From positions 1 to 20,388 of IMG/VR virus record IMGVR_UViG_3300025122_005324: a DNA stretch of 20,388 nt; one strand, given 5' to 3'. Below, piece after piece: positions 1,495 through 20,219 of this stretch. Position 1 is the first letter of the stretch; each line of letters opens with the position of its first letter. The translations under genes were made by a program, and so were the position numbers. Under the pieces are notes generated by a model. That model had not been told where the DNA came from, searched no databases, and saw only the letters and a program-made list of their open reading frames with translations. Source of the DNA: a virus.

Positions 1495-1535
1495 TAAAGA
1501 AAAACTATAAACTATTTATTACAGGAGTGTATCAC

Positions 1536-3089
1536 ATGTGGAATGAAGAATCCTCTTTAGCTGTAAATCATTGGCGAGATTTCTTAAATGAAGAAAAACC
1601 GCCAGAGTTAGAAACGGCAGTAGACATTGAAGAGCCCATTGAGCCCATGGAGCCTATTGAGCCTATTGAGCCCGGCGCACCTCCGGCAACTCCACCACCG
1701 CAAACGCTAACGCCGGATGAATTACATGCGGATCTAGAATTGGCAAAACAACATTATCCAATTTGTAGAACAAAGCCTGAACTTTGCGCAACTAAGCGCC
1801 CAATCGAACTTAGTGAATTGCCAATTCCAATTTATGATAGCTCAATTTCTATAGGTCCGGACGATCTACCACGTGAATTAAATATATCAAATATGAGTTT
1901 AGCCGATACATTGAAGACACAGAATCTCTATGACCTCTTGAATCAGAAAAATGGTTGGGTGAGAATGGAGAATTCTCCTGGTGTGAAATATGTTGTTCCT
2001 AGAAATTCATGGGGAACCGTACAAACAAAAATACTTTTAACATCGTTAGGAAAATTACCTGGTGCGATTGAAAAGCCATTTGTTATAAGAGACGTTACTC
2101 AATTTGTTGATACTGGGGACTATGTTAGCGTTGGCCACCCATTTGGACATCTCTCGCATTTAGACGGTAGAGATGTTGATTTTAGCATTCCAAATAAAAC
2201 GACTGCCAGTGGACAATCGGTTGGAGAGAACGGAAAACGCTTTTTACCTCATGGGCATGAACTTTTAGGGCGACAACATTTCGATGTAGATCGAACTTTG
2301 ACAGTTTTAAGACACTATATGCCACATTCAGAAAAGGTTTTTTTGTGGACTGGATATCACCCTCAGTTAGAGAATCGCGCCAAAGAATTAATTAGAAATA
2401 ACAAAATGACCCAAGAAGAATACAATCTTATTTTCACAAGTGGAAATCTTCAAGCTGGGTGTAAGAGCGGTGTGCGCCACTGCCGAGACCATGATAATCA
2501 TTTTCATATTAGATTTAAAGGGACTCCACTACCTAAATATTCTGCAAATTATGCACCCTGGTATCATAATGTTGCAAGCTCGCCCTTATCGCGCATTTTG
2601 AGAAAACAAAGACATGAACAATTACCGGGAGGAAAGAGATCCAATATTATGGATAAAATACGCCACCTGAAAAAAGCTAGCGGAAAGGCATTCACCCGAA
2701 AACAACTTAAGGCATTAGAAAGAGGGCTTAAAGAATATAAATTTAAAGAATTAATTAATTTATTAAGAGAGTGGAAAAATAAAGAATATCTTATTGAGCA
2801 GCCAATGGACCCTGCAATGATGGATCCTGCTGCACAAAGAATGCAAATGGCAAAACAAGCTATACAAATGCAATATGCTCCACTATTTGCGCAAGCAGCA
2901 GATATTATGTATACACTAAACTCTTTAGAAGACCCGGCGGCAAAACAACAAGCTAGAATATATGCAGACAGAATCCAAAGCGAGTTTCGTGACTTTTTTT
3001 CCGGAAAAGAAGATCCAATGGAATCAATGATGGATTTGGGCCCGATTGTAGATGAAATGGGAAGAAAACTACAAAAATTCATGTCCTAG
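1536..3089 (+). CDS. Tagged M74 (MepA-like) peptidoglycan endopeptidase, 517 aa
   Basis: I chose ATG 1536 because AGGAG lies 8 nt upstream; the in-frame GTG at 1527 sits within that ribosome binding site. Order: an N-terminal helix with NHWRDFLNE (phi-x-E end at residue 19); a Pro/Glu linker with repeated EPI units (about 32-57); and a peptidase domain at about 180-340. The peptidase contains GHLSHLDGRDVDF (residues 204-216) and DNHFHIRF (320-327). In E. coli MepA the zinc ligands are the His of LSH, the second Asp of DVD and the last His of HFH, matching H208, D215 and H324 here. MepA cleaves D-Ala-mDAP cross-links in peptidoglycan. The C-terminus (about 370-517) is helical, Met/Gln-rich and unknown. 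The tag suggests a virion-carried hydrolase that acts at genome entry rather than a free endolysin; that part is inference. Confidence 0.8.
   Translation: MWNEESSLAVNHWRDFLNEEKPPELETAVDIEEPIEPMEPIEPIEPGAPPATPPPQTLTPDELHADLELAKQHYPICRTKPELCATKRPIELSELPIPIYDSSISIGPDDLPRELNISNMSLADTLKTQNLYDLLNQKNGWVRMENSPGVKYVVPRNSWGTVQTKILLTSLGKLPGAIEKPFVIRDVTQFVDTGDYVSVGHPFGHLSHLDGRDVDFSIPNKTTASGQSVGENGKRFLPHGHELLGRQHFDVDRTLTVLRHYMPHSEKVFLWTGYHPQLENRAKELIRNNKMTQEEYNLIFTSGNLQAGCKSGVRHCRDHDNHFHIRFKGTPLPKYSANYAPWYHNVASSPLSRILRKQRHEQLPGGKRSNIMDKIRHLKKASGKAFTRKQLKALERGLKEYKFKELINLLREWKNKEYLIEQPMDPAMMDPAAQRMQMAKQAIQMQYAPLFAQAADIMYTLNSLEDPAAKQQARIYADRIQSEFRDFFSGKEDPMESMMDLGPIVDEMGRKLQKFMS
1632..1673 (+). repeat. Short tandem repeat encoding an (EPI/EPM) linker
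   Basis: About five near-identical 9-nt units of the form GAGCC(C/T)ATT encode Glu-Pro-Ile or Glu-Pro-Met. They form an extended acidic proline linker between the N-terminal tag and the rest of the endopeptidase. Copy number could vary by slippage. Confidence 0.8.
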
Positions 3090-8278: not shown

Positions 8279-8539
8279 ATGATGAATATAAATTTATTAG
8301 ACAAGATGACACGAAAATTTCTTTTAGGAGAAGAAAAAGAAGCTCCTACGATTCGTAATTGCGTTGAAAATGTAAATGAACTTTTAAATAAAATGAAGCC
8401 GCAATCTATGAGAGAAAGCAAACAAATCAATGCAGCTAAAGAGCATTTAAACGAAATTAAAAAATTAGCAAGAAGGCTTGAAGGTCAAGTACTTCAACTC
8501 GAAGAGCAAATTGAACTCTTAGAAGAGGGAAAAAAATAA
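8279..8539 (+). CDS. Small coiled-coil protein (86 aa)
   Basis: Two adjacent ATGs (8279 and 8282) could start it; a TAGGAAA element lies about 11-14 nt upstream. Residues 1-17 include KMTRKFLLGE followed by Glu, another short helix ending in a phi-x-E-like motif. Residues 25-86 are a long charged heptad-like helix (VENVNELLNKM, LEGQVLQLEEQIELLEEG), probably a dimeric coiled coil. Its stop overlaps the next start (TAATG), so it is coupled to the 1483-residue fusion and may be a partner, chaperone or scaffold for it. No family recognised. Confidence 0.6.
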   Translation: MMNINLLDKMTRKFLLGEEKEAPTIRNCVENVNELLNKMKPQSMRESKQINAAKEHLNEIKKLARRLEGQVLQLEEQIELLEEGKK

Positions 8540-11500
8540 TGGGTGGCGCCGCCGGACATATGGCACATCCTTTTGATTTGCCCGAAGTTAATACAGGTAA
8601 TGATTTAATTAATTTTTTTGAAGAAGCCGCAGAATATCTTGCGACAAATCCTGCCAGCGTAAAAATTGATGGGGTTAATGTAAGCTTTAAATTAATTGAT
8701 GGCCTTCACGGAAAAGAATTTGCTGTTGATCGCGGCAGTACAAAACCTATTGACATTGAAGGTATAACATTAAGCAGAGTTGGCGAAAGATTTCCAGAAG
8801 GCCATGGAATGCGCCCAGCAATTACAACTTTATTAAATATTTTTAATAGAGCCCTACCAAATATACAAGATGAATTACAAAGATTAGGAATGTGGGAGAA
8901 TCCTACAATATTTTTAAATACTGAATATGTTACAAAAGGCAAAACAAATGTTCAAGAGTATGATAAAAACTTTTTAGCTATTCATGGCGTTAATCAATTT
9001 TATGAAAAAACAAATGCAAGAACTGGTGCGCAAAGGCCTGGTGCAGAAAGGCCAATGGGAAATAAAGCGCCGAGTTCTGAAATATCTTACGATGATGAAG
9101 TATTCAATTCTTTAATTGAGAAAGTTAGACCAGTCGCTGCAGAATTTGATTTTGAAATATATGGCAGCGTTCCAACAACATCTGTTGCGAGTGCTGATTT
9201 TTCTTCTACTCTCGCGACTCCATTTCCTGTAAACTACGGATATGATGAAGAAGGGAAACTTTTTTCAGATACAAAACCATTAGGACAATGGTTAGATGAA
9301 ACTAACAATCCCAGAGGTGCATTTGTTGTTTTGGCAAATGGAAAGAAAGTAGGTGCTTTAAGTAAACTTATTTATACAGAAATTTTAAATGGAACACCTA
9401 TGACAGAATTGTTGGCTGTTGGAGAAGAATTTTGGGATAGCGTAAAGAAGGGTGCGCCATTGGAAGGAACAGATGTTGAAAAAGCCGTCGACGGAGCAGT
9501 TTTCTATCATACCACAAGAATGCTGGGGAACGATGTCTTAAAAACGCTAACTAGTGATATGGGCCCTGTTGAAAGCCACGAAGGAGCCGTTGTGAGAGGC
9601 ATTTCTTCCGTTCCAGTTAAAATAACTGGAGAATTTATACTTGGTGGACTTCAAACTGGCTTTCGAGAGCATAAAGAGTTAAATGAACAATTAGAAGAAA
9701 AGCGACATCTTGCATTAATTCCGGGAGGTTTTAAGCCGCCGCATAAAGGCCATTTAGAAATGGTTAAATTTTATTATAAAAATGTTGGCCGCGGCGGGAA
9801 AGTAATAGTTTTAATGGGAAGCGGCGGAAAATCACCGAGAACAATAAATGGGAGGCCAATAACTTTACAAGATTCAATGGATATTTGGGAAACTTATTTA
9901 AGAAACGACCCAGAAATCGAATGGCCATCAGATAGAATTGAATTTCAAAATGTAGAAGGCGCCGGCCCAATTGCTCCTATTATAGATTACGTAAGAGAAC
10001 AAGCAGATCCAGAAACAGAAGTAATCCATTTGGGCGCAGGCGAAAAAGATGCCGGAAGATGGAAGATGATGATGGATAGCCCAAAAAATAATCCGAGAGG
10101 TGTTGAAATACGTATTGCACCAGCACCAAATTTATTTGATGCACAAGGAAATCCTTTAAGCGCTTCAGCAATGCGTCAAGCTGTTGAAGAAAAAGATTTA
10201 GAAACTTTCAAAAATTATATTCCCGATACAAGCCTCCACATGGCTGAAGATATATATATTAAATTAAGAGGAGCTATGTTAATGGAAGGAAAGGAGGACA
10301 GCCCACTTCCGTTGGGTATATTTCTCGGGCTAATTGAAGAAACTTTAGATGAAAAAGAAAATTTATTAACAGAACGGCGGCCGCCGGACCTGGATTTGCC
10401 GCCGCTGCCACCAGATGATTGGAAAATAGAAGATAGAGAACTTTTCACTCCGCCGGCAATCAGAACAGACCCACCTGAACCAATTGATCCTTTAAGGGCT
10501 AAATTGCTTCAATCTTATACAAGCGGCCCAAATCGTGAAGCGTGGACTTGGGAGAAAGGCTATATATGGAGAGAAATAATACCGAATGAATCATGCCATC
10601 CGAATTGCACTCAAAAAGATGTTGAAAATATTTATAAAAACAAGATTTTTCCCGACATAGAAGAAGCTATATTAGAAACAGAGATAACTCATGGGATCCC
10701 AAAACGTCATCCATATAAAGACAGATACGGAATATGGCAACCTAAAAGACGTTATGAGTCCGGACCGATTGGGGATATATACCTAGCTAACGAAGAAGAT
10801 CTCAAAAAATGGGGGCACAGATCGTTGGCGCCAGAGGAAGAAAAAGAAGTAAAAAGACATGAACTTGGTGGGCATGCAGTTGATTTTTCGGCCGTAACGA
10901 GAGAGCTAAAGAACAAATCGGGATCTGTTGGGAAACCGTTGACAAAAGATATTTTATATCGATTGGCTCAAAGTGGGCGCGATCTTAAGAAAATGAAAGA
11001 AGCATTCCCATGGTTGTCAATAGGAGGAGGAGAAGATAGGTGGGAATTTCCCCAAGAATTGTATGTTGGTATAGTAACGGCGCGCCCGAATTTACCACGC
11101 TATCACCAAATAAAGGGCACGGGCAGCGATTGGAAATTTACAGCAAAAGATATCGCTGATATTCGCTCTGGTAACTTTACTTGGCCAGCTCAGGGAAAAG
11201 AATGGTCGCCCGGGCCAATACCCTATCGTGATCGACAAAGGCTGCAAAAAGCACTGCTGCACAACAAAGATCTTGGAATTGGCCCAAGCGATGAAGAGAT
11301 GGCAGATATTTTCAATCAAGTTTCACAAGTAGATCCAATTCAAGATCCAATTCAAGAACCAACAATGGTTGCAGAAAATACATTTTCATCAAATGAACTT
11401 TTACGATTAATTGAAGGTGTTATGGCACACGCTCGCAACGATGATCTTAAAATATGGAATGATGAAGCTTTAGAGGCCGCCAATAAAAATGAAGATGAAG

Positions 11501-12990
11501 AATTAGAAGAAGCGTCTTCAATGGCTGGTGGAAATGTCGCTGGTGCGTCCGGAGCGGCTGGAAACAAGCCTCCTGGTAGTCGCGATGATGAATATTTAAT
11601 TAGAGAAGAAGAGGAAGATCCGCCTGTAGAGCCCGTAAAGCCAGTTACTAGACGAGATCCTGAGCCCGAAGGTACGCATAAAGGCTCTGAGGATTATTGG
11701 CTAACAAAAAAGGGTCGTAGGCCCCTAGGAGATGTTTTTAAATCTCCGCCACCACCAAAACCTTCAGAAGATTTGATGCGGCGGTGGAAGGGCGACAAAG
11801 GTAAGAGTGATGAAGAGTGGTTAAAAAGTATGACCGGCGACGAGATGGATCAAATAATGGCTCACCGAGAGTATCACAGTGCAATTAAAAAAATGATAGA
11901 TCCATTCGGAGGGCCGCAAGCAGGGCGAAAAAGAGGTATCGAAACGACAAGCATGATGCCCGGTTATAAGCAATATTTAAAATTGTATAGCGACATAGAA
12001 CCACCAGAAAAGATTGATACTGAAAAAATAATTTCAAAACAAAAAGAAGATATGATAAATAAATGGACCAGCGGTAAAGATAAAGAAAGAATGATTAATT
12101 TTATTAAAAAAAAGCATATGATTGGCAGACCAGAACCGCTAGCTCCAGAATTGAGCATAACTAAAAGAACCGGCCGGGCATTTGTGAAATCTCAATCGGA
12201 AAAAGCACTAGAAGACCAAAGAGTAGAATATATATACCAAAAAGAATATTTGCCATTTATACTTGATGCAATAAAAAATGTTCCTATTGGGGTTGTTTCT
12301 GGCTATTCACAAGGAAAGGCTCACCGCGGCAAATATGGGCAAGAATTTGGATCACATTCCCATAAAATAGGGGGCGGTAAAGAACATCAAAAAATTAGTT
12401 TATACACAAAAGAAATACAGCAAAGAGCAAAAAAATCAGGTCGGAGTTATGAAGATCAACTTAGAAGGACCGTGAACCATGAAATTGAACATGCAATCGA
12501 TAAGCGGTATCAGCTTGAAAGAAGCCCACGAGCCGCAGAACGAGAGGCTCGCGAACCATGGCGATCTGCAGATCGCAGCGGCTGGCTATCAAGTGAACAA
12601 GCACAATTAATTAATACTGTGGCCGACCCGGGCATGGCGTATACCGAAAGTCCCCAAGAAGAAGGGGGAGGATTTATATACAATAGCTGGGTCGAATACG
12701 CGCAACGCCCAACTGAATTTCGCTCTTTTGTTAAAACAGATTTGCAAAAAGATACTCCATGGACGCCGGCAGAAGTAAAAAAAGCATGGGAAAAAGGCAA
12801 GTCTTCAAAAGGGAATAATATCTGGAAAGCTATGGATTGTAGTGATCCTGCCAAATGTGCACATGTTATTAATTCTATAGCAAAAGCAGAACCAGCACAA
12901 AAACCCACAAGAATGGTTGCAGAACAAAAAAATGATGAGCTTGTTGAAGAAGTTATGAACTATTTACTACATAAGAATGGAGCAAAATAA
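8539..12990 (+). CDS. Fusion of ligase-like adenylyltransferase, HxGH nucleotidyltransferase and two metallopeptidase-like domains (1483 aa)
   Basis: Domain 1 (about 30-375) has covalent nucleotidyltransferase motifs: K42-I-D-G (motif I), FLNTEYV with E129 (III), HEGAVVR at 347-353 (IV) and VKITGEF at 360-366 (V). These suit an ATP-dependent RNA/DNA ligase fold. Domain 2 (about 390-560) is a cytidylyl/adenylyltransferase: GGFKPPHKGH at 396-405 and the terminal SASAMR at 541-546. Domains 3 and 4 carry HELGGH (774-779) and HEIEH (1314-1318), with acidic residues downstream (E836/E840; E1386/E1393) as possible third zinc ligands. Each is followed by a similar tail (P-T-x-M-V-A-E). LIE before Gly960 and LEE before Ala992 are possible processing sites. 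Ligase-like plus HxGH fusions are, as I recall, known in marine T4-like phages and suggest RNA or NAD repair; peptidases added behind them are unusual. Substrates unknown. Confidence 0.7.
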   Translation: MGGAAGHMAHPFDLPEVNTGNDLINFFEEAAEYLATNPASVKIDGVNVSFKLIDGLHGKEFAVDRGSTKPIDIEGITLSRVGERFPEGHGMRPAITTLLNIFNRALPNIQDELQRLGMWENPTIFLNTEYVTKGKTNVQEYDKNFLAIHGVNQFYEKTNARTGAQRPGAERPMGNKAPSSEISYDDEVFNSLIEKVRPVAAEFDFEIYGSVPTTSVASADFSSTLATPFPVNYGYDEEGKLFSDTKPLGQWLDETNNPRGAFVVLANGKKVGALSKLIYTEILNGTPMTELLAVGEEFWDSVKKGAPLEGTDVEKAVDGAVFYHTTRMLGNDVLKTLTSDMGPVESHEGAVVRGISSVPVKITGEFILGGLQTGFREHKELNEQLEEKRHLALIPGGFKPPHKGHLEMVKFYYKNVGRGGKVIVLMGSGGKSPRTINGRPITLQDSMDIWETYLRNDPEIEWPSDRIEFQNVEGAGPIAPIIDYVREQADPETEVIHLGAGEKDAGRWKMMMDSPKNNPRGVEIRIAPAPNLFDAQGNPLSASAMRQAVEEKDLETFKNYIPDTSLHMAEDIYIKLRGAMLMEGKEDSPLPLGIFLGLIEETLDEKENLLTERRPPDLDLPPLPPDDWKIEDRELFTPPAIRTDPPEPIDPLRAKLLQSYTSGPNREAWTWEKGYIWREIIPNESCHPNCTQKDVENIYKNKIFPDIEEAILETEITHGIPKRHPYKDRYGIWQPKRRYESGPIGDIYLANEEDLKKWGHRSLAPEEEKEVKRHELGGHAVDFSAVTRELKNKSGSVGKPLTKDILYRLAQSGRDLKKMKEAFPWLSIGGGEDRWEFPQELYVGIVTARPNLPRYHQIKGTGSDWKFTAKDIADIRSGNFTWPAQGKEWSPGPIPYRDRQRLQKALLHNKDLGIGPSDEEMADIFNQVSQVDPIQDPIQEPTMVAENTFSSNELLRLIEGVMAHARNDDLKIWNDEALEAANKNEDEELEEASSMAGGNVAGASGAAGNKPPGSRDDEYLIREEEEDPPVEPVKPVTRRDPEPEGTHKGSEDYWLTKKGRRPLGDVFKSPPPPKPSEDLMRRWKGDKGKSDEEWLKSMTGDEMDQIMAHREYHSAIKKMIDPFGGPQAGRKRGIETTSMMPGYKQYLKLYSDIEPPEKIDTEKIISKQKEDMINKWTSGKDKERMINFIKKKHMIGRPEPLAPELSITKRTGRAFVKSQSEKALEDQRVEYIYQKEYLPFILDAIKNVPIGVVSGYSQGKAHRGKYGQEFGSHSHKIGGGKEHQKISLYTKEIQQRAKKSGRSYEDQLRRTVNHEIEHAIDKRYQLERSPRAAEREAREPWRSADRSGWLSSEQAQLINTVADPGMAYTESPQEEGGGFIYNSWVEYAQRPTEFRSFVKTDLQKDTPWTPAEVKKAWEKGKSSKGNNIWKAMDCSDPAKCAHVINSIAKAEPAQKPTRMVAEQKNDELVEEVMNYLLHKNGAK
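10267..10284 (+). promoter_or_regulatory. Possible internal ribosome binding site at a domain boundary
   Basis: AGAGGAG at 10267-10273 lies 8 nt before an in-frame ATG at 10282 (codon 582); another in-frame ATG at 10276 is too close to the element. The position is just after the nucleotidyltransferase domain. An independent C-terminal product with both metallopeptidase-like domains could start here. Purine-rich codons could mimic this by chance. Confidence 0.35.
11359..11424 (+). repeat. Tail repeat, copy 1 (P-T-M-V-A-E ... N-E-L ... V-M)
   Basis: Residues 941-962 of the 1483-residue protein (PTMVAENTFSSNELLRLIEG, then VM) follow the HELGGH domain. They match the end of the protein in order and spacing: PT, MVAE, an N/D-E-L turn, then a helix ending in VM. 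Several codons are identical, including the ATGGTTGCAGAA core. Confidence 0.6.
12904..12957 (+). repeat. Tail repeat, copy 2, at the C-terminus
   Basis: Residues 1456-1473 (PTRMVAEQKNDELVEEVM) follow the HEIEH domain and end the gene. They share the ATGGTTGCAGAA core with copy 1. Together with the two HExxH domains they suggest an internal duplication of a peptidase-plus-tail unit. Confidence 0.6.
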
Positions 12991-13772
12991 TGCAAATTAA
13001 TCGTCACAAGTTTATTGATGGATTGTTAGAAGAGCAAAAACTTCGTGCAATTATACGAAAAGGCATCGGAATAATCTTAGAAAAAAGAAAGCAAAATTCA
13101 AAATTGTTGCGAGAAGAATTGCAATTAAAACAAATAGTTCGAAGCTTAATTAAAGAAGCTACAAAGAAAAATATTAAACAACACGATAGCACTGGAATGA
13201 ATGCATTAGAAGTTTTAGTTACCTCAACAAATTTTTTGGATGAATTGAAAGGCGAGTATATATTACTGAGAACAAATGTAGAGCAAAGAGACTCTTTTAA
13301 ACAACATGTTATGAATGCAATTGAGAATATGTTTGCTCGCGATGAACTTAATAGAGAACCAGATGAAGAAGAGCGAGAAAGAGAAGAAGAAAAGCCAGAA
13401 TCTAATGTGGGAGTAACGCCTGAAAGTGATGTGGAAGATCAAGATGATATTGCAGTACAAATAACGGAAGCTTTATTGGCCCTCAATGAACAAGAAACAT
13501 CAAGTGCAGCTAAAAGTACATTTGCCGTACTTCCAGACATGGAAAGAACTGGTGCGATTCGCGCTAAAAGCGCTTGGAATAAAGTTGAAGAATTGCTTAT
13601 TTCTGCGTTGTCTGGTTTGCCACTTGAAGAAGATCGACAAACATTTAAGAAATATTTGCTATTAAACTTTACGGGTGCGCCACATCCTGAAACTGGAAAA
13701 TGGGTACCTGGATATTTTGAACAATGGGAAGCAGAAATTAGTGGTGTAACCCCAGAGGCTCCAGCAGCATAA
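12990..13772 (+). CDS. Charged helical protein, possible core or scaffold component (260 aa)
   Basis: It starts on the stop of the preceding gene (TAATG). Residues 1-60 are strongly basic and helical (FIDGLLEEQKLRAIIRKGIG, then ELQLKQIVRSLIKEATKK), with IKE before Ala at 54-57 as a candidate cleavage site. Residues 65-115 are another helical part. Residues 120-150 are an acidic Glu/Asp/Arg linker. Residues 150-260 form a second domain with aromatic residues near the end (LLNFTGAPHPETGKWVPGYF). No family or catalytic motif recognised. It is the last gene of the coupled run, with 157 nt of noncoding DNA after it. Basic helix plus acidic linker resembles scaffold-type proteins only in a general way. 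Confidence 0.6.
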   Translation: MQINRHKFIDGLLEEQKLRAIIRKGIGIILEKRKQNSKLLREELQLKQIVRSLIKEATKKNIKQHDSTGMNALEVLVTSTNFLDELKGEYILLRTNVEQRDSFKQHVMNAIENMFARDELNREPDEEEREREEEKPESNVGVTPESDVEDQDDIAVQITEALLALNEQETSSAAKSTFAVLPDMERTGAIRAKSAWNKVEELLISALSGLPLEEDRQTFKKYLLLNFTGAPHPETGKWVPGYFEQWEAEISGVTPEAPAA

Positions 13773-13929
13773 TTCACCCCCCGACATCATTTTTTCAAAT
13801 CAAAAAGAATCAATCAAAAATGAAAAGAAAAGAAAAAATCTGATAAGATTGAAAAAGGTTGAAAAGAAGTGAAATGAAATCAACCAACCGTCCGACCAAG
13901 GGTATCATGTTTTCGGAGAAATTTTAAGA
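13773..13929 (+). other. Purine-rich intergenic region with short inverted repeats
   Basis: This 157-nt gap is the largest noncoding stretch in the left two thirds. It is A/G-rich on this strand. It holds a 5-bp hairpin (AATCT-GATA-AGATT, 13837-13850) and a looser pair GGTTGA/TCAACC (13857-13862 and 13880-13885). A C6 run followed by T6 occurs near the start, without a stem strong enough to call a terminator. GGAGA at 13916-13920 is the ribosome binding site of the next gene. A promoter for that gene probably lies here, but no clear -35/-10 pair is seen. Confidence 0.4.
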
Positions 13930-14301
13930 ATGAATTGGAAAAAAAGAAAATGGCACGGCAAAAACGAGCGATACAGCCTCTCAAAAAAATTGAAGAGAGA
14001 AGAAAAAACAACTGAAGAATTTGAAATCATGCTCAATCAATTGTCACTGGAAGAAGTGATTGGTTTGAAATTGGAGTTGGCTTCTAAAGTTTTTGGTGGA
14101 AAATCCTATGGTCTTCCAATCTGGCACTCAATGAAAGATATTGTAAATGATGCAGTACTAAAATATGCTTTATCAGCTTGTAGAACCAAAAGAGAAGCTG
14201 CAAGATTTTTAGGTTTAAAACCACAGAATTTGAATAACGTACTTAAAAAGTATAATGTTGAAAGTTTTTTCGAAAAAGAGCTTAAAAAGCTTGACAAGTG
14301 A
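13930..14301 (+). CDS. DNA-binding protein with C-terminal Fis-type helix-turn-helix (123 aa)
   Basis: ATG 13930 follows GGAGA by 9 nt. Residues 1-30 are very basic (KKRKWHGKNERYSLSKKLKR). Residues 30-70 are helical. Residues 78-110 read as a Fis/NtrC-type HTH: ALSACRTKREAARFLGLK, then NLNNVLKKYNV, matching the family pattern (A-L-x-x-C/G-N-R-T-x-A-A-x-x-L-G-I-x-x-x-T-L-x-x-x-L-K-K-Y). There is no sigma54 AAA+ domain, so it cannot be an NtrC-type activator by itself; a nucleoid-like or regulatory role is more likely. The tmRNA promoter's -35 element lies in its last codons, so it may autoregulate or control the downstream cluster; that is inference. HTH assignment fairly sure, targets unknown. 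Confidence 0.75.
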   Translation: MNWKKRKWHGKNERYSLSKKLKREEKTTEEFEIMLNQLSLEEVIGLKLELASKVFGGKSYGLPIWHSMKDIVNDAVLKYALSACRTKREAARFLGLKPQNLNNVLKKYNVESFFEKELKKLDK

Positions 14302-14319
14302 TATATAATATAATATATT
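14291..14319 (+). promoter_or_regulatory. Sigma70-type promoter for the tmRNA
   Basis: A perfect TTGACA (14291-14296) is followed after 17 nt by TATATT (14314-14319), inside an AT repeat that offers alternative TATAAT hexamers at worse spacing. Transcription would start near 14326, about 20 nt before the mature tmRNA 5' end. The -35 overlaps the final codons and stop of the upstream HTH gene. Confidence 0.75.
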
Positions 14320-14345
14320 GTTTAATAACATGTTCTTTAAAATAT

Positions 14346-14725
14346 GGGGGCGAAATGGTTTCGACAAAGTAGAGAGATTGTTTTGTGCAAGACTGTGTAA
14401 GTATCACAGTAAAAATACTTAAACTTTATAAATGCCAACGATAACGTTGAATTTGATTACGCCTTAGCTGCATAATCGGAAGTTGTTAGTGACTTTCTTA
14501 AAGAACACTAATTGTTTTCAGTTTTAAAAAAAGCTGGTGGTACGCGCAAGCGGGATTTTAATTGTATAGGAAACTATATAAATTTGGTAGCCAACACCTT
14601 AAGTTGGTGAATGGATTCCCTGATTTAATCGGGTGGCTGGTACATCGGCGGTGATTGTGCCTATTCTTGTGAATGACAAGATATTTGAACTATTTTGGAC
14701 CCGAGTTCGATTCTCGGCGCCTCCA
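14346..14725 (+). ncRNA. ssrA: Transfer-messenger RNA (tmRNA), one-piece
   Basis: The 5' end GGGGGCG (14346-14352) pairs over 7 bp with CGCCTCC (14718-14724). The third pair is G-U, the alanyl-tRNA synthetase identity element. The T arm is CCGAG-TTCGATT-CTCGG (14701-14717) and the discriminator is A14725. The next bases are CTA rather than CCA, so CCA must be added after transcription. The tag frame runs 14434-14475 and encodes ANDNVEFDYALAA followed by TAA; with the charged alanine the tag is A-ANDNVEFDYALAA, ending in the usual ALAA degradation signal. tmRNA rescues stalled ribosomes with SmpB and marks the products for proteolysis. No smpB is seen here, so host SmpB would be used. Phage tmRNAs are known but uncommon. 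I did not resolve all pseudoknots. Confidence 0.95.
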
Positions 14726-14748
14726 CTATTTTTATACGGAGAAAATTT

Positions 14749-15909
14749 ATGAGTAATGAAGAATTTTTTGAAGAAGAGCTTGAAGAAGAATCTGTACAAG
14801 AAGAAGAGCCCGAACAAGAAGAGCCCGAACAAGAAGAGCAAGAAGAAGAATGGGACGTTCCAAATGATGAGCCTTTTGGTTTAAATGATTTTGATTTTGT
14901 AGAAGCATACGACGATGAACCAGCAGCTGATGATAGAATGCTGGAAGAAAATACTGCTAAAAGTGCTATAAATTGTGCCTTTCTCGGAATTGGCGGCGGT
15001 GGCGGAAAAATGGCCAAAGCCTTTTTGGACCTAGGGTTCAATAAGACTCTATTAATAAACACAACAGAGAAAGACCAACCAAATGGTGTTAATCCAGAGA
15101 ATTTTCTTTTGATTCCTGGAGCCGATGGTGTGGCAAAAGATATTAAATTAGGAAAAGAAGTACTAGGAAATAATAGCGCTCTCGTTGAAGACGCTCTTCG
15201 TACTCGAATTGGTAAAGTAGATTGGATTTTTGTTTTAGCTGGTGCCGGAGGAGGCACAGGCAGCGCAAGTCATGTTTTGCACAAATCAATGACTCGCTAT
15301 TTGTCTTCAATTGAAGCTGAAGGGAAAGTTGTTTATGTTGTCAGCAAACCTACGGCACAAGAATTGTTGAATCCAACTATTAAAGCAAATTGTGGAGTGA
15401 TGTTAAGAGACATAAAGAATCATCCTCACATTGTTATTGATAACGAAAAACAATTACAGCTTTTACGCGGAAAAGTGGGTATGCTTAATATGTACCCTGC
15501 CGCAAACACGAACTTTGCAAAACTTCTTGGCCAAGTGCTTAAGCTGGCTGACGAGCCTTCTCCAATTCAAGCTTTTGATTCAAAAGATCTTGAAAGATGT
15601 TTATCATCGAATGGTAGAATGCTTTTAGGAAGTACTGTTGTGAGAGATGCAACTAAACAAGATTTAGGAGCATCAATATTTCAAGGATGTTTAAAATCCT
15701 CGCCTTGCGCAGCACCTTCTAATCAGCCAAAAACAGGAGTTTTGCTTTTAATCATAACACCGGAAATGGGCGATAATCCCCAAATTAGTAATCGAATGGA
15801 AGCCGCCTTCTCTTATGTTGGTGGCCGAGCAGAAACTTTATTTTCTGGAGTGTATGTAAATGATAGATTGCCAGGTTTAATTGCTTTGACATTGCTTGGT
15901 GGAATGTAG
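14749..15909 (+). CDS. FtsZ/tubulin-family GTPase with acidic N-terminal tail (386 aa)
   Basis: ATG 14749 has CGGAGA 6-7 nt upstream; the frame extends 18 codons further left but only into the tmRNA. Residues 4-60 are an extremely acidic, low-complexity tail with EEPEQ repeats. The GTPase domain follows: T1-like GIGGGGGK (80-87), LINTTEKDQ at the position of FtsZ NTDAQAL, tubulin signature GAGGGTGS (165-172), and synergy loop AFDSKDLERCLSSNGRMLLG (275-294), which aligns with FtsZ NVDFADVRTVMSEMGMAMMG. D277 and D280 match the catalytic aspartates. The signature's last Gly is Ala and the T1 Asn is Lys. It lacks the usual C-terminal FtsZ tail and ends LLGGM. The loop is more FtsZ-like than PhuZ-like. 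It probably forms filaments that position phage DNA or alter host division; the role is inferred. Confidence 0.85.
   Translation: MSNEEFFEEELEEESVQEEEPEQEEPEQEEQEEEWDVPNDEPFGLNDFDFVEAYDDEPAADDRMLEENTAKSAINCAFLGIGGGGGKMAKAFLDLGFNKTLLINTTEKDQPNGVNPENFLLIPGADGVAKDIKLGKEVLGNNSALVEDALRTRIGKVDWIFVLAGAGGGTGSASHVLHKSMTRYLSSIEAEGKVVYVVSKPTAQELLNPTIKANCGVMLRDIKNHPHIVIDNEKQLQLLRGKVGMLNMYPAANTNFAKLLGQVLKLADEPSPIQAFDSKDLERCLSSNGRMLLGSTVVRDATKQDLGASIFQGCLKSSPCAAPSNQPKTGVLLLIITPEMGDNPQISNRMEAAFSYVGGRAETLFSGVYVNDRLPGLIALTLLGGM
14803..14838 (+). repeat. Tandem repeat encoding EEPEQ units
   Basis: Two exact 15-nt units (GAAGAGCCCGAACAA) and a partial third encode the Glu-rich N-terminal tail of the FtsZ-like protein. 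Length could vary by slippage between related phages. Confidence 0.8.
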
Positions 15910-15932
15910 ATTTTTTAAAAAAGGAGAAAATC

Positions 15933-16013
15933 ATGGGTTTAGTAGGATATTTAGTAGTACTTGCAGCGGGAGTTGCAGTTGGTGTCGTTTTGGCTAAGAG
16001 AGGAGTAGTATAA
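15933..16013 (+). CDS. 26-residue membrane peptide
   Basis: AAGGAG lies 7 nt before the ATG, one of the best ribosome binding sites in the window. The peptide starts MGLVGYLVVLAAGVAVGVVL and ends with a basic AKRGVV, a single Gly/Val-rich transmembrane helix with a positive C-terminal side. It starts 23 nt after the FtsZ-like gene and its stop overlaps the next ATG (TAATG). Its last codons carry the next gene's ribosome binding site. It could anchor the filament system or act as a small holin-like or regulatory peptide; only its membrane nature is supported. Confidence 0.65.
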   Translation: MGLVGYLVVLAAGVAVGVVLAKRGVV

Positions 16014-16189
16014 TGAATCAAAGAGAAGCTTTAAGTGTATTAATCCAAGCAGCTAATATTGCTCAAAATAAAGGGGCTTTTAATTTACAAGAAGCTCAGA
16101 CTGTTGCGACTGCAGTATCAACTTTTATAACGCCACCTGAAACTTCCTTGGAAGAAGAAACAGACTCTACCGAGGAAGTAAATGACTGA
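16013..16189 (+). CDS. Small helical protein with acidic tail (58 aa)
   Basis: The ATG overlaps the previous stop and has GAGGAG about 8 nt upstream. Residues 1-40 look like two amphipathic helices (NQREALSVLIQAANIAQNKG, then NLQEAQTVATAVSTFI). Residues 41-58 are an acidic disordered tail ending EEVND. The end overlaps the next gene by 8 nt. As I recall, small proteins of this form are common in marine T4-like phages with no assigned role. I recognise no specific family. Confidence 0.6.
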   Translation: MNQREALSVLIQAANIAQNKGAFNLQEAQTVATAVSTFITPPETSLEEETDSTEEVND

Positions 16190-16481
16190 AGTAGTATCTA
16201 AAAAATCTTGGGATACAGTTGCAACTTTTTCCACATATGAAGAAGCAGATCTTCGACGAAAACAACTTTTAAATGTATATGATCAAGTAAAAGTTAAACG
16301 TGGCGTGTCTGATGGCGAAGTTTTTAGAGTGAAGGTGTGGAACGCACCAGTAATTAAAGAAAAATTACATAAACCTAAAAATAAATTTAAAAAGAAACAA
16401 AACGTAAAAAGGGCACAAAGAGATGATAACAAGAAGATACGCGCTAGACGAAAAGAGTCGCAAGATTTTTATCGGGAGTAA
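16182..16481 (+). CDS. Small protein with strongly basic C-terminal tail (99 aa)
   Basis: It starts inside the end of the previous gene, with GAGGA 6 nt upstream. Residues 1-55 look like a compact alpha/beta unit (WDTVATFSTYEEADLRRKQL, then VKVKRGVSDGEVFRVKVW). Residues 56-99 are dominated by Lys/Arg/Gln (NKFKKKQNVKRAQRDDNKKI) and probably disordered. That composition suggests nucleic-acid binding, but no motif proves it. It overlaps the following frame by 59 nt, the largest coding overlap in the operon. Confidence 0.6.
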   Translation: MTEVVSKKSWDTVATFSTYEEADLRRKQLLNVYDQVKVKRGVSDGEVFRVKVWNAPVIKEKLHKPKNKFKKKQNVKRAQRDDNKKIRARRKESQDFYRE

Positions 16482-16629
16482 AGTAAAATATAACAATCGT
16501 ATTTTTCTTGTCGAAGACATCCAGTATTTAGATTGGACTATCAAGCAATTTTTAACACTTTCGGACCACAAGAATAAAAATAAAAAACTAGAGTTTATTG
16601 CTCCTAGTGAAGTAAAGGCTATTCGTTGA
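16423..16629 (+). CDS. Small beta-rich protein (68 aa)
   Basis: The ATG lies 59 nt inside the preceding gene with only a weak purine stretch upstream, so the true start may be later (near 16470). The clear part is GSKVKYNNRIFLVEDIQYLD followed by QFLTLSDHKNKNKKLEFIAP, an SH3-like or KOW-like set of strands. The stop overlaps the TTG start of the GAPDH gene (TTGA). Function unknown. Confidence 0.5.
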   Translation: MITRRYALDEKSRKIFIGSKVKYNNRIFLVEDIQYLDWTIKQFLTLSDHKNKNKKLEFIAPSEVKAIR

Positions 16630-17678
16630 AAAAAAATATATTAGTTGTTGGCACTGGCACAATTGGGGAGCCCCTGATTGGTCTTTTAGCAGATCTTAGA
16701 AAAAAATTAAATATTGGACATGTGATTTTTCACAAGCGCACTCCTTTAATAGATGAAGTGGCAAAAGTCAACAGTTTAATAAAAAGAGGGGCCCGCCTGG
16801 CCGTAAATGAGGATTCAATTCCAGCTTTTAAAGAACTAGGGCACGATGTAAAATATGATTTTCAGGCAGCCTTGAAAGCGGCGCATGTTGTAATTGATTG
16901 CACTCCTGCAGGAAATGATCATAAAAAGAAACATTATGTAAAATACCCAGAGAAAGTTTTTATAGCACAAGGGAGTGAAAAAGACTTTGGTGTGCCATAT
17001 GCTTATGGTATTAATGACGAAGTGCTTGATAAAAAACCAGCCTTTATTCAAGTTGTTAGTTGCAATACTCACAATATCGCCTCTATTATAAATTCGATTG
17101 ATCCAAATGTTGATGGTATTGAGCGTGGAGATTTCGTTTGTATTCGGAGAGCCAACGATATAAGCCAGGAAGGAAATTTTATTGCCTCACCGCGTGTAGG
17201 ACCCCATTCAAATGAAAAATTTGGCACACACCACGCCAAAGACGCATACGATCTATTTCGTACAAAAAATAAATTTGTCAATATCTTTTCAAGTGCGTTA
17301 AAAGTTAATTCTCAATATATGCACGTTATTCGTTTTAATTTGGTAGTTTGCGGTCATGTATCAAAAGAAAATTTGATTAATAGATTTAGAGAGAATAAAT
17401 TTGTGGCTCTTTCTCATAAAACAATAGCAAATAAAGTGTTTTCTTTTGGGCGAGATCACGGGTACTATGGAAGAATTTTCAATCAAACAGTAGTGTCGAT
17501 ACCAACTTTAACAGTTGACAATCTTCCAGGTAAAACAAAAATAAGTGGATTTTGCTTCACTCCGCAAGATGGAAATTCACTTCTTAGTAGCGTAGCAGCT
17601 GCGCTGTACGGTCTTCATGAAGATTCTTATACTGACTATTTAAAAGCTTTTGATAAGTTTTTATTCCAAAATATATAA
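16626..17678 (+). CDS. Type II (archaeal-type) glyceraldehyde-3-phosphate dehydrogenase, 350 aa
   Basis: The start is TTG at 16626, fused to the previous stop; the product begins at once with the dinucleotide-binding strand KKNILVVGTGTIGE. The catalytic Cys lies in VVSCNTHN (C146), where archaeal GAPDH has VVSCNTTG near residue 140. The segment IRRANDISQ matches archaeal V-R-R-A-A-D-P. H233 in YMHVIRF fits the catalytic His of LMHMH. GRDHGYYGRIFN matches the conserved G-R-D-L-G-R-L region. The family oxidises glyceraldehyde 3-phosphate with phosphate and NAD(P)+. Length (350) suits the family (about 335-345). Encoded in a phage-like operon, it may be an auxiliary metabolic gene that steers carbon or NAD(P)H; substrate change is possible since the sequence is divergent. 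Confidence 0.8.
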   Translation: MKKNILVVGTGTIGEPLIGLLADLRKKLNIGHVIFHKRTPLIDEVAKVNSLIKRGARLAVNEDSIPAFKELGHDVKYDFQAALKAAHVVIDCTPAGNDHKKKHYVKYPEKVFIAQGSEKDFGVPYAYGINDEVLDKKPAFIQVVSCNTHNIASIINSIDPNVDGIERGDFVCIRRANDISQEGNFIASPRVGPHSNEKFGTHHAKDAYDLFRTKNKFVNIFSSALKVNSQYMHVIRFNLVVCGHVSKENLINRFRENKFVALSHKTIANKVFSFGRDHGYYGRIFNQTVVSIPTLTVDNLPGKTKISGFCFTPQDGNSLLSSVAAALYGLHEDSYTDYLKAFDKFLFQNI

Positions 17679-17680
17679 CA

Positions 17681-18028
17681 ATGAGACGAAGAACAAATAA
17701 AAAACAATCAATTGATTTTGTAAGCTATGTGTGTGAGCCTAGAGATATAATAATTGAAGCTAGCAGGCCAGTTGATTCTGCACATTTAAAGGTTGAATTA
17801 AAAGTTGCTGATAAAGTTGCTTTAGTTGGTAGATATAGAATTGGCTTTACTGATGATATGGATATTATCCACGAAAAAATAAAAGTATTTTGTAACGCAC
17901 TCAGTAAATTTACAGATAAAGACATACAATATCATGTTATTGCAGAACGAATAACTCTAGCACTAAATGCAAAAAAATCCCTAAAAGAAGTTAGAGCCAA
18001 AACTGGTAGATTAATTTGGCGTCGCTAA
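17681..18028 (+). CDS. Conserved-looking small protein, function unknown (115 aa)
   Basis: It starts 2 nt after the GAPDH gene, without an obvious ribosome binding site, so it is probably coupled. It looks like a compact alpha/beta domain: strands in the first half (DIIIEASRPVDSAHLKVELK, VALVGRYRIGF), then helices (IIHEKIKVFCNALSKFTDKD, ERITLALNAKKSLKEVRAKT), and a basic end (GRLIWRR). No catalytic motif recognised. It is the last plus-strand gene before a convergent gene, and the two stops overlap by 4 nt with no terminator between. Confidence 0.55.
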   Translation: MRRRTNKKQSIDFVSYVCEPRDIIIEASRPVDSAHLKVELKVADKVALVGRYRIGFTDDMDIIHEKIKVFCNALSKFTDKDIQYHVIAERITLALNAKKSLKEVRAKTGRLIWRR

Positions 18029-18798
18029 GAATTAAAAATATCTTTTAGGTTTAATATGCGCATCACTTCTTTGTATGCCATATATTTTTTCAAATTGTAT
18101 TTAATGAAATGTTTTAAATCTTCATATCTTGTCGACAAAGTCATCACATGAAAACGGGTAAAAACAGAATGAACCATTCCAACCAATTGTCCGCCCTCAT
18201 TAACTATCATAGATCCTGAACTACCAGGCGCCGCCGGAAGGGTGTAAAGTGCGACGTTTTCGTCTTCACCATTATATCTTCCTTCCAATATGGGCACTAT
18301 ATTAGGCTTGTATATTCCTACGGGCGCGGCAATATTGTAGACCTTGTCACCAGGCTTTGGAGCCCTTCTGGAAATTCTTACGGCTTCAACATTTTCTGTT
18401 AAATCTGCAATAAAAATAATACAAGCATCAATTTTCATATCATATTCTAAAACGCTGGCTTTATATTCTTCTCCATCCAGTCGATATGCAAGGTATTTAG
18501 ATGTAACATTTTCTGGCTTAACAGTTGGTGATTTTTCATTTTTGCAAACATGGGCGGCTGTTATGGCAAAAGACCCATCATCAATTGTTTTTACAACATA
18601 GCCAGAAGCTGAATGTTTTAAATCTACTGATGTACATAAATTATTTTCACATTTGTGCACTGTTAGGACTTTTCTTAAAAATACAAATGATTCACGTGGC
18701 GCAATGTCGCTAACAGTATGTTTGTTTGTGCCGCTACATGAAAAGAGGGGAAACATAAACGATAAGATGAGGAATAATTGTGTTATTTTTTTAAACAT
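18025..18798 (-). CDS. Lipoprotein trypsin-like serine protease (257 aa)
   Basis: I chose the ATG at 18798 because TAGGAGG lies about 10 nt upstream; the longer frame to 18876 would put unrelated residues before the signal peptide. The N-terminus is a lipoprotein signal (FKKITQLFLILSFMFPLFSC, lipobox L-F-S-C). The catalytic triad is readable: His in ITAAHVC, Asp in YDMKIDACIIF and Ser in APGSSGSMI, the order and spacing of the S1/V8-like trypsin fold. A membrane-tethered periplasmic or surface protease is expected. It is the only minus-strand gene in the window, with its own promoter, and looks like a moron-type insertion. A role in host-envelope change or superinfection exclusion is a guess. 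Confidence 0.8.
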   Translation of the reverse strand: MFKKITQLFLILSFMFPLFSCSGTNKHTVSDIAPRESFVFLRKVLTVHKCENNLCTSVDLKHSASGYVVKTIDDGSFAITAAHVCKNEKSPTVKPENVTSKYLAYRLDGEEYKASVLEYDMKIDACIIFIADLTENVEAVRISRRAPKPGDKVYNIAAPVGIYKPNIVPILEGRYNGEDENVALYTLPAAPGSSGSMIVNEGGQLVGMVHSVFTRFHVMTLSTRYEDLKHFIKYNLKKYMAYKEVMRILNLKDIFNS

Positions 18799-18847
18799 GC
18801 ACAGTGACCTCCTATTGTAACTATGACGAAAAAAAACAATCGTTCTT

Positions 18848-18876
18848 TTTATAAAAATAAAATAAAAAGAAGTCAC
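18848..18876 (-). promoter_or_regulatory. Sigma70-type promoter for the serine protease
   Basis: Read on the minus strand, GTGACT (18876-18871) is followed after exactly 17 nt by TATAAA (18853-18848). That leaves a leader of about 40 nt before the TAGGAGG and ATG of the protease gene. The spacing is ideal; the -35 matches the consensus in four of six bases. Confidence 0.5.
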
Positions 18877-18902: not shown

Positions 18903-20219
18903 ATGGCAAAGAAAACTTATATTTTAGATACTAGTGTTTATTTAACTGATGCAAATTCTATTGGATCTTTTGGGAATAATGACATAGTTATACCCTTTAA
19001 GGTTTTGGAAGAAGTAGATAATCACAAAAAACGCCAAGATAGTGTCGGAGCAAACGCCCGCAGAATTATACGTAAATTAGACTCCTTGAGAGAGAAAGGC
19101 AGCCTTCACAGAGGAGTACGCATAGAAAGAGGCAAGGGCCGGGTTTTTGTAAAAAATTGTGAATATTCCGCAGGAGATCTAGATTTGTCAATAGCCGATA
19201 ATGAAATTATTGGCGTTGCTTTAAGTGAAAGAGAGCTTAATCCAAAAAGAAGAGTTGTTGTTGTATCTCGCGATATTAATATGCGCGTGAAATGCGATGC
19301 TTTAGGCTTGCTAACTGAAGACTATGTTTTAAATCAAGTTGTTAAAGATGCCACTCGATTGTATACCGGCTTCAGAACACACTTGGTTGATGAAGAAATA
19401 ATTGATCAATTTTACAGTGGAGAGCAAATATATTTGGATAAAGAGGATATTTCCCCACGTCCAAATGAATTTTTGATGCTGGTATCTAATGCAAATGAAA
19501 AAAAGACAGCATTGGCCAGATTCTACAATCACTCAATACCTCTTAAAAGAATTAACGGCGAACACAAAAGAGGAGTGTGGGGAGTTCGCCCCCGCAACAA
19601 AGAACAGAATTTTGCTTTAAATTTATTATTAGATCCAAACGTGCCGATTGTTACATTGGTTGGCAAAGCTGGAAGCGGCAAAACTCTATTGGCATTAGCC
19701 GCCGGATTAGCCCAAGTGGTCGAAAGCAACGAAGAAACCAGATATAAACATCTGGTTGTCTCAAGACCTATTCAGCCAATGGGAAAAGATATTGGCTATT
19801 TACCTGGAACAATGGAAGAAAAAATGTCTCCCTGGTTGGCGCCAATACAAGATAATTTAAAATATTTGATGGGAAACGATAAAGAAACTTTGCAAATGTA
19901 TACTATGCAAGGTACAATAGAAGTTGAAGCTTTAACATATATAAGAGGCCGCTCCATTGCAAATGCATTCATAATTATTGATGAGGCACAAAATTTAACC
20001 GCCCATGAACTTAAAACAATTATTACGAGAGTTGGAGAGAATACAAAAATTGTTTTAACTGGCGACGTCGAGCAAATTGATAATGTATATGTTGATGAAA
20101 CATCGAATGGTTTAACATATGCAATAGAAAAATTTAAAAGCTATGATCTTACTGGTCACATGACTTTGATGAAAGGCGAACGAAGTAGCGTTGCAACCCT
20201 CGCAGCAAAAATTCTTTAA
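18903..20219 (+). CDS. PIN-PhoH fusion ATPase (PhoH2 type), 438 aa
   Basis: The N-terminal PIN domain (about 1-130) starts KKTYILDTSVYL with the first acidic residue D9 and continues with VIPFKVLEEVDNHKKR, typical of PhoH2/YlaK proteins. The PhoH P-loop domain (about 225-438) has Walker A GKAGSGKT (254-261), SRPIQPMGKDIGYLPGTMEE and Walker B IIIDEAQN (D360, E361). Length is normal for the family. PhoH2 proteins are described as RNA helicases joined to a PIN ribonuclease; PhoH genes are very common in marine phages, where their role is not settled. No clear ribosome binding site precedes the ATG, which lies 8 nt after a TATAAAT element; the message may have little or no leader. Confidence 0.9.
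   Translation: MAKKTYILDTSVYLTDANSIGSFGNNDIVIPFKVLEEVDNHKKRQDSVGANARRIIRKLDSLREKGSLHRGVRIERGKGRVFVKNCEYSAGDLDLSIADNEIIGVALSERELNPKRRVVVVSRDINMRVKCDALGLLTEDYVLNQVVKDATRLYTGFRTHLVDEEIIDQFYSGEQIYLDKEDISPRPNEFLMLVSNANEKKTALARFYNHSIPLKRINGEHKRGVWGVRPRNKEQNFALNLLLDPNVPIVTLVGKAGSGKTLLALAAGLAQVVESNEETRYKHLVVSRPIQPMGKDIGYLPGTMEEKMSPWLAPIQDNLKYLMGNDKETLQMYTMQGTIEVEALTYIRGRSIANAFIIIDEAQNLTAHELKTIITRVGENTKIVLTGDVEQIDNVYVDETSNGLTYAIEKFKSYDLTGHMTLMKGERSSVATLAAKIL

Follow-up and report, generated by a model that had tools for sequence, protein, structure and literature searches.

The question raised by this locus is whether the gene at positions 14749-15909 encodes a tubulin-like GTPase standing apart from the named families of phages, plasmids, archaea and bacteria, and what such a protein could do in an infected cell. 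The gene is located on the plus strand of a virus record of 20,388 bases, here called the window, and it runs from ATG to stop, encoding 386 amino acids. A Shine-Dalgarno sequence GGAG on the same strand (14738-14741), 7 nt before the ATG, supports this start codon and hence the N-terminal tail of the protein. The window protein matched TIGR00065 (ftsZ) with an E-value of 8.2e-11 (41.8 bits against a curated cut-off of 295.2), FtsZ sequences of the PDB with an E-value of 2.5e-8, and the Pfam family Tubulin with an E-value of 6.5e-6, slightly under the cut-off of that family. The TIGR00065 and PDB matches, together with the Foldseek results given below, place its similarity to the tubulin/FtsZ superfamily far above chance.

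The residues of the active site could be assigned on the plus strand. The T1 loop GIGGGGGK comprises residues 80-87 (14986-15009), the T4 tubulin signature GGGTGSA residues 167-173 (15247-15267) and the T7 synergy loop DSKDL, with the catalytic D277 and D280, residues 277-281 (15577-15591); N232 (15442-15444), invariant in alignment A1, is the counterpart of the guanine-contacting N165 of FtsZ. Alignment with fetched reference sequences equated D277 with D209 of E. coli FtsZ, D280 with FtsZ D212 and PhuZ D190, K87 with FtsZ N24 and CetZ K14, and A173 with FtsZ G111 and PhuZ V97. The original prediction that both catalytic aspartates of FtsZ are kept, while T1 has Lys for Asn and the signature ends in Ala, was therefore correct as to the residues. 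As marks of a separate branch, however, all three are shared with other families: PhuZ also keeps the aspartate pair (D187/D190), the alanine mutant of its D190 being catalytically inactive (PMC4244570), CetZ also has Lys in T1, and PhuZ also ends the signature in a residue other than Gly.

Structure prediction gave a confident tubulin fold for two family members, AlphaFold2 reaching a mean pLDDT of 85.8 with the window protein and of 92.2 with the second. According to the models and to Foldseek, a Rossmann GTPase domain, a long H7 helix and a C-terminal activation domain are combined in one chain. CetZ, FtsZ and TubZ were near-equal Foldseek matches (E 6e-20 to 5e-19, TM up to 0.79), CetZ being the best, and no PhuZ was found among the top 50 matches of the window protein. 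In a tree built with fetched FtsZ, CetZ, TubZ and PhuZ sequences, the family formed one clade outside all four (support 98/96, stem of 1.8 changes per site) and FtsZ a separate one (100/100); in a second tree, without PhuZ, the support for the family clade was 99/97. The protein is thus a superfamily member that lies outside the PhuZ clade and that of host FtsZ, and it appears to belong to none of the four named families. Profile comparison ranked TubZ first (E 1e-17), followed by FtsZ and CetZ (both 2e-8) and PhuZ (2e-7). TubZ was sister to the family at 92/80 in one tree and without support in another, and AU tests rejected no sister pairing (PhuZ p 0.40, CetZ p 0.26, TubZ also kept). A branch distinct from PhuZ and TubZ, as had been proposed, is therefore found in the sense of a clade of its own; TubZ is nevertheless the nearest family by profile, and the separation from it is one of clade only.

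These results bear directly on the reading of the protein as a divergent form of PhuZ, with which nucleus-forming jumbo phages build their spindle. Both are phage-borne members of one superfamily and the AU test keeps them as possible sisters, but the family lies outside the PhuZ clade, has its lowest profile similarity of the four families to PhuZ, and keeps the guanine contacts E205 and N232, which are missing in the aligned PhuZ sequences.

A scan of viral contigs using the family alignment recovered relatives on at least 276 IMG/VR contigs, and among the aligned members identity to the window protein ranges from 54 to 90%. No tblastn match to different family members used as queries was obtained in 50,697 GenBank phages, a collection that returned 141 PhuZ records to a PhuZ query, and no account of the family was found in the open-access literature. 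The family is apparently undescribed and consists of hundreds of uncultured giant-phage sequences, with no cultured phage among those searched. Its loop residues in T1, T3, T4, T6 and T7 are fixed in the alignment: all 96 distinct members have Lys in T1 and GGGTGS in T4 (GGGTGSA in 92, GGGTGSS in four), and T7 reads FD(S/T)xDL in 95. Comparison of the window protein with its nearest relative gave a dN/dS of 0.04 for the core and of 0.24 for the tail. Fixation and the core value of 0.04 indicate that the T1 Lys and GGGTGSA are family characters under selection rather than signs of decay, and a degenerate copy or pseudogene was ruled out on the same grounds. Among GTDB genomes, just four contigs carried the gene, in Flavobacteriales and Halobacteriovorax bins; since in all three bins searched a genuine, separate FtsZ is present in addition to the phage-type copy, the phage-type genes appear to lie on stray phage contigs. 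A host FtsZ fragment or prophage contamination was ruled out by this finding together with the viral nature of the record and the hundreds of viral relatives. At one locus (L146, 3990-5722) a complete tubulin gene of one variant comes after the truncated N-terminal part of another, which breaks off behind GGGG; recombination may have replaced the gene here, or the assembly is chimeric.

Intact loops, T7 aspartates that would act in trans and strong selection argue for GTP hydrolysis at subunit contacts, so that the protein probably forms a dynamic polymer. Such a polymer could in principle be aimed at the host, mimicking FtsZ so as to join the Z-ring or block it and thereby halt division. The overall fold and the catalytic pair are FtsZ-like, and phage proteins targeting FtsZ are well known, among them T5 Hdi (PMC10714956) and P1 Icd (PMC11897509). 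Those known inhibitors, however, are small peptides, and poisoning a ring needs no fully conserved hydrolysis site; with an identity to FtsZ of about 20%, a TIGR00065 score of 41.8 against 295, and no FtsZ-type C-terminal linker and peptide, the family protein is improbable as a mimic of this kind.

The acidic N-terminal tail comprises residues 1-64 (14749-14940, plus strand), of which residues 1-42 are predicted to be disordered (pLDDT <50 in the AlphaFold2 model of the window protein). A lineage-specific 15-nt tandem repeat on the plus strand (14801-14850) codes for EEPEQ units, which are missing from most members in the family alignment. The nearest relative, 94% identical over residues 38-386, likewise has a Glu-rich N-terminus, and this, with the dN/dS values of core and tail, establishes the tail as real coding sequence. 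The Glu-rich N-terminal tail that had been described for this gene is consequently genuine, but the Glu repeat is limited to the nearest relatives of the window. What is found family-wide is a shorter acidic segment with a DFDF-type motif, represented here by DFDFVEAYDD (residues 47-56, 14887-14916, plus strand), in which F50 is invariant. Tail length varies from 28 to 153 residues across the family, whereas the 30 residues preceding the domain always have a net acidic excess of 6-13 in the 96 distinct members. Most of these have one copy of the motif and ten have two; members scored as zero and inspected carry EFDF instead. Both monomer models place the motif with low confidence (pLDDT in the 50s). 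At the other end, alignment and model agree that the chain stops at the last strand of the fold, leaving no tail at the C-terminus. To judge from the sequences, an acidic-aromatic motif that is short and conserved and sits on a variable, disordered linker has the appearance of a binding peptide, and for this reason an adaptor role is proposed. Of the 96 members, 26 (e.g. L023, L026, L031, L053) begin with an additional basic leader, MAS(S/T)xK..., ahead of the acidic tail.

The carriers of the gene are large myoviruses with a T4-type capsid, a DnaE-type polymerase and usually a chaperonin; we assume from the sampled collections that they are marine. Carrier contigs reach 293 kb, and each of 19 large viral contigs holds exactly one tubulin copy. 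Of 20 carrier records, 16 encode a T4-type capsid protein; a DnaE-type polymerase (PF07733) is present in 15 of 19 contigs and a GroEL-like chaperonin in 14 of 19, counts that have no background rate, as the carriers were picked for having the tubulin gene. Family-B polymerase, looked for as a test of T4-likeness with no T4 positive control alongside, was found in none of 19 carrier contigs. Portal, head protease, terminase, neck and sheath genes are located near the tubulin gene in several lineages. The lineage of the window is represented by fragments only (73-118 kb), none of which covers the capsid gene, so a T4-type capsid is ascribed to it from its relatives; one 118 kb contig of this lineage carries both the DnaE-type polymerase and the chaperonin. 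In each of the records G017 and G018 (IMGVR_UViG_3300012952_003952 and 3300007513_000001), a pair of T4-type major capsid genes lies side by side on the contig.

The gene content of the carriers can also be set against that of PhuZ phages. Genome size is similar and a chaperonin is present, and chaperonin genes co-occur with tubulin in phiKZ-like phages also (PMC7824862). A multisubunit RNA polymerase, however, was detected in none of 20 carrier contigs (three of four phiKZ-type controls were positive) and chimallin in none of 15, by a test that was moderately sensitive since three of five controls were positive; a T4-type capsid protein is found instead. Taken with the phylogeny, this makes a divergent PhuZ highly improbable.

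Flavobacteria hardly use Shine-Dalgarno sites. In the loci carrying the tubulin gene, such sites precede 25-86% of genes per locus, typically over half, against a background of about 13%, which makes the Bacteroidota host hinted at by the Flavobacteriales bins unlikely.

In the window, a tmRNA (14346-14726, plus strand; tag ANDNVEFDYALAA) is situated directly upstream of the tubulin gene, and a PhoH2-type helicase with PIN and PhoH domains is encoded at 18903-20219 on the plus strand. The order tmRNA, tubulin gene, PhoH recurs in two lineages; the tmRNA lies directly 5' of the tubulin gene in two lineages, at a dozen loci (L003, L005, L009, L010, L012, L018 and L019, and further L026, L028, L030, L034 and L077). 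Depending on the lineage, the tubulin gene is found between major capsid and neck genes, between portal and head protease genes, upstream of terminase, or between tmRNA and PhoH, and these differing neighbours show that it is kept independently of any one of them. T4-type late promoters were not enriched upstream (2 seen, 2.2 expected), so that late timing is suggested by gene neighbours, in some lineages only.

A small Fis-like helix-turn-helix protein is encoded upstream of the tmRNA (13930-14301). Such a gene upstream of a tubulin with TubZ as its closest profile match (E 1e-17), and with the FDSx(D/E) T7 motif in common, is what might be expected of a TubZ-type partition motor segregating the phage genome in a plasmid-like carrier state. 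The helix-turn-helix gene, however, is restricted to the lineage of the window (6 of 40 loci), and the adjoining partner is the tmRNA rather than a TubR gene. The region 13700-16300 contains no iterons, just the repeats coding for the tail. As the protein also lacks a C-terminal tail and the contigs carry myovirus head, neck and tail genes, a partition motor is quite unlikely.

Several other genes of the window and its relatives deserve mention. The protein encoded at 16626-17678 (350 aa), conserved in seven related loci, is a distant relative of type II (archaeal) glyceraldehyde-3-phosphate dehydrogenase (E 6e-24, under the curated cut-off). A trypsin-like serine protease (Pfam Trypsin_2, E 7e-15) with an apparent lipoprotein signal is encoded by the only sizeable minus-strand gene here (18025-18876) and has a homologue in ten loci. 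The 1483 aa protein at 8539-12990 weakly resembles a cytidylyltransferase-like domain and also a zincin metallopeptidase. Many otherwise unrelated proteins of these phages start with a short amphipathic leader ending in (L/I)xE (MKLLREYIRxLLxE, MKLLFENWRKYLKE, MKITKSQLKQIIKEEL), including those at 991-1494, 1527-3089 and 12990-13772 of the window, at 11776-21023 of L019, and in L055, L061 and L076. The pattern, which was drawn after the leaders had been seen, occurs in 48 of 666 ORFs versus 7.6 in shuffles. The leader resembles the T4 capsid-targeting sequences cut by the prohead protease and, if this likeness is true, would single out a large number of proteins as packaged and injected.

The location of the tubulin gene directly between major capsid and neck/sheath genes in one lineage could point to a GTPase that does not polymerise alone but serves head and neck morphogenesis, either as an assembly factor or as a component of the virion. 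Other lineages have the gene elsewhere, though, the tubulin protein has no LxE-type leader of the kind seen on many neighbouring proteins, and the T7 aspartates, acting in trans across the subunit contact, are fixed. An assembly factor is therefore considered unlikely.

The most economical role, and one we moderately favour, would be the intracellular organisation of DNA or capsids. GTP would be bound between the T1-T6 loops, and subunits would stack head-to-tail, D277 and D280 of one subunit completing the hydrolysis site of the next. The resulting filament, treadmilling or dynamically unstable, would be present in the infected cell, and the acidic tail, displaying DFDF once or twice per subunit, would project from it to recruit cargo or provide an anchor. 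By positioning replicating DNA, capsids or assembly sites, the filament may organise late infection in these large, lytic-type myoviruses, in which no phage nucleus is detectable. Taken as a whole, a GTP-driven cytomotive filament that organises infection with no phage nucleus and whose N-terminal motif serves as the peptide for cargo or anchor appears somewhat more probable than its negation.

In a survey of marine jumbo phages, homologues of tubulin and shell proteins were unique to the phiKZ-like cluster PGC_B, while PGC_A was the largest cluster, with infection strategies described as as-yet unidentified, and PF07733 was the sole PGC_A-unique gene found in over half of its genomes (PMC9123017). 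The presence of a tubulin, conserved and single-copy, on hundreds of contigs, with PF07733 on most of the large ones, points to a cytoskeletal component in PGC_A. That a second, larger set of marine giant phages, of the DnaE type and lacking a phage nucleus, possesses a tubulin cytoskeleton of its own, made from an independent branch of the superfamily and linked to cargo by an N-terminal motif, is possible, if slightly on the doubtful side; if true, the DnaE-type phage tubulin cytoskeleton would supply part of the infection strategy of the PGC_A-type group. The family makes it testable whether the use of tubulin by phages requires a nucleus. For work on the origin of tubulins, it adds a branch of a depth comparable to FtsZ, CetZ, TubZ and PhuZ.

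Tubulins of huge phages have been described as PhuZ (PMC7162821), and an overview from 2021 refers to two different FtsZ/tubulin representatives of jumbo phages, giving too little detail for a match to this family (PMC7824862). The databases already contain unstudied phage tubulins other than PhuZ. The best viral structural matches in BFVD, A0A6J5RW92 (uncultured Caudovirales phage, annotated 'FtsZ'; E 8e-22) and A0A8S5UFG9 (Myoviridae sp. ctcyQ27; E 7e-18), both ranked ahead of PhuZ entries; the names given to these two proteins are 'FtsZ' or 'cell division', and with an identity of only 18-19% they do not belong to the same family. PhuZ itself (201phi2-1 gp59, phiKZ gp39) is likewise a phage-encoded GTPase of the superfamily that keeps the T7 aspartates and occurs in large genomes, but it forms a separate clade, lacks E205 and N232, and has its tail at the C-terminus instead of the N-terminus; its phages differ from the present carriers, which combine a T4-type capsid with a DnaE-type polymerase and have no detectable chimallin or multisubunit RNA polymerase. 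TubZ, the tubulin that partitions plasmids in Bacillales, comes closest in profile comparison and shares FDSx(D/E) in T7 and N-T-x-x-x-D in T3, yet identity is about 20% and the family has no C-terminal tail, iterons or conserved adjoining TubR gene. CetZ, the haloarchaeal cell-shape tubulin, gave the best Foldseek match and shares the T1 Lys and the GGGTGS signature; it differs in forming a separate clade, in a T7 reading D..E rather than D..D, and in having no similar N-terminal motif. Bacterial FtsZ has the fold, the catalytic aspartate pair and the guanine contacts in common with the family, but identity is about 20%, the score lies far under the TIGR00065 cut-off, and the C-terminal linker and conserved peptide of FtsZ are absent from the family, in which the N-terminal DFDF tail would do the job of that peptide.
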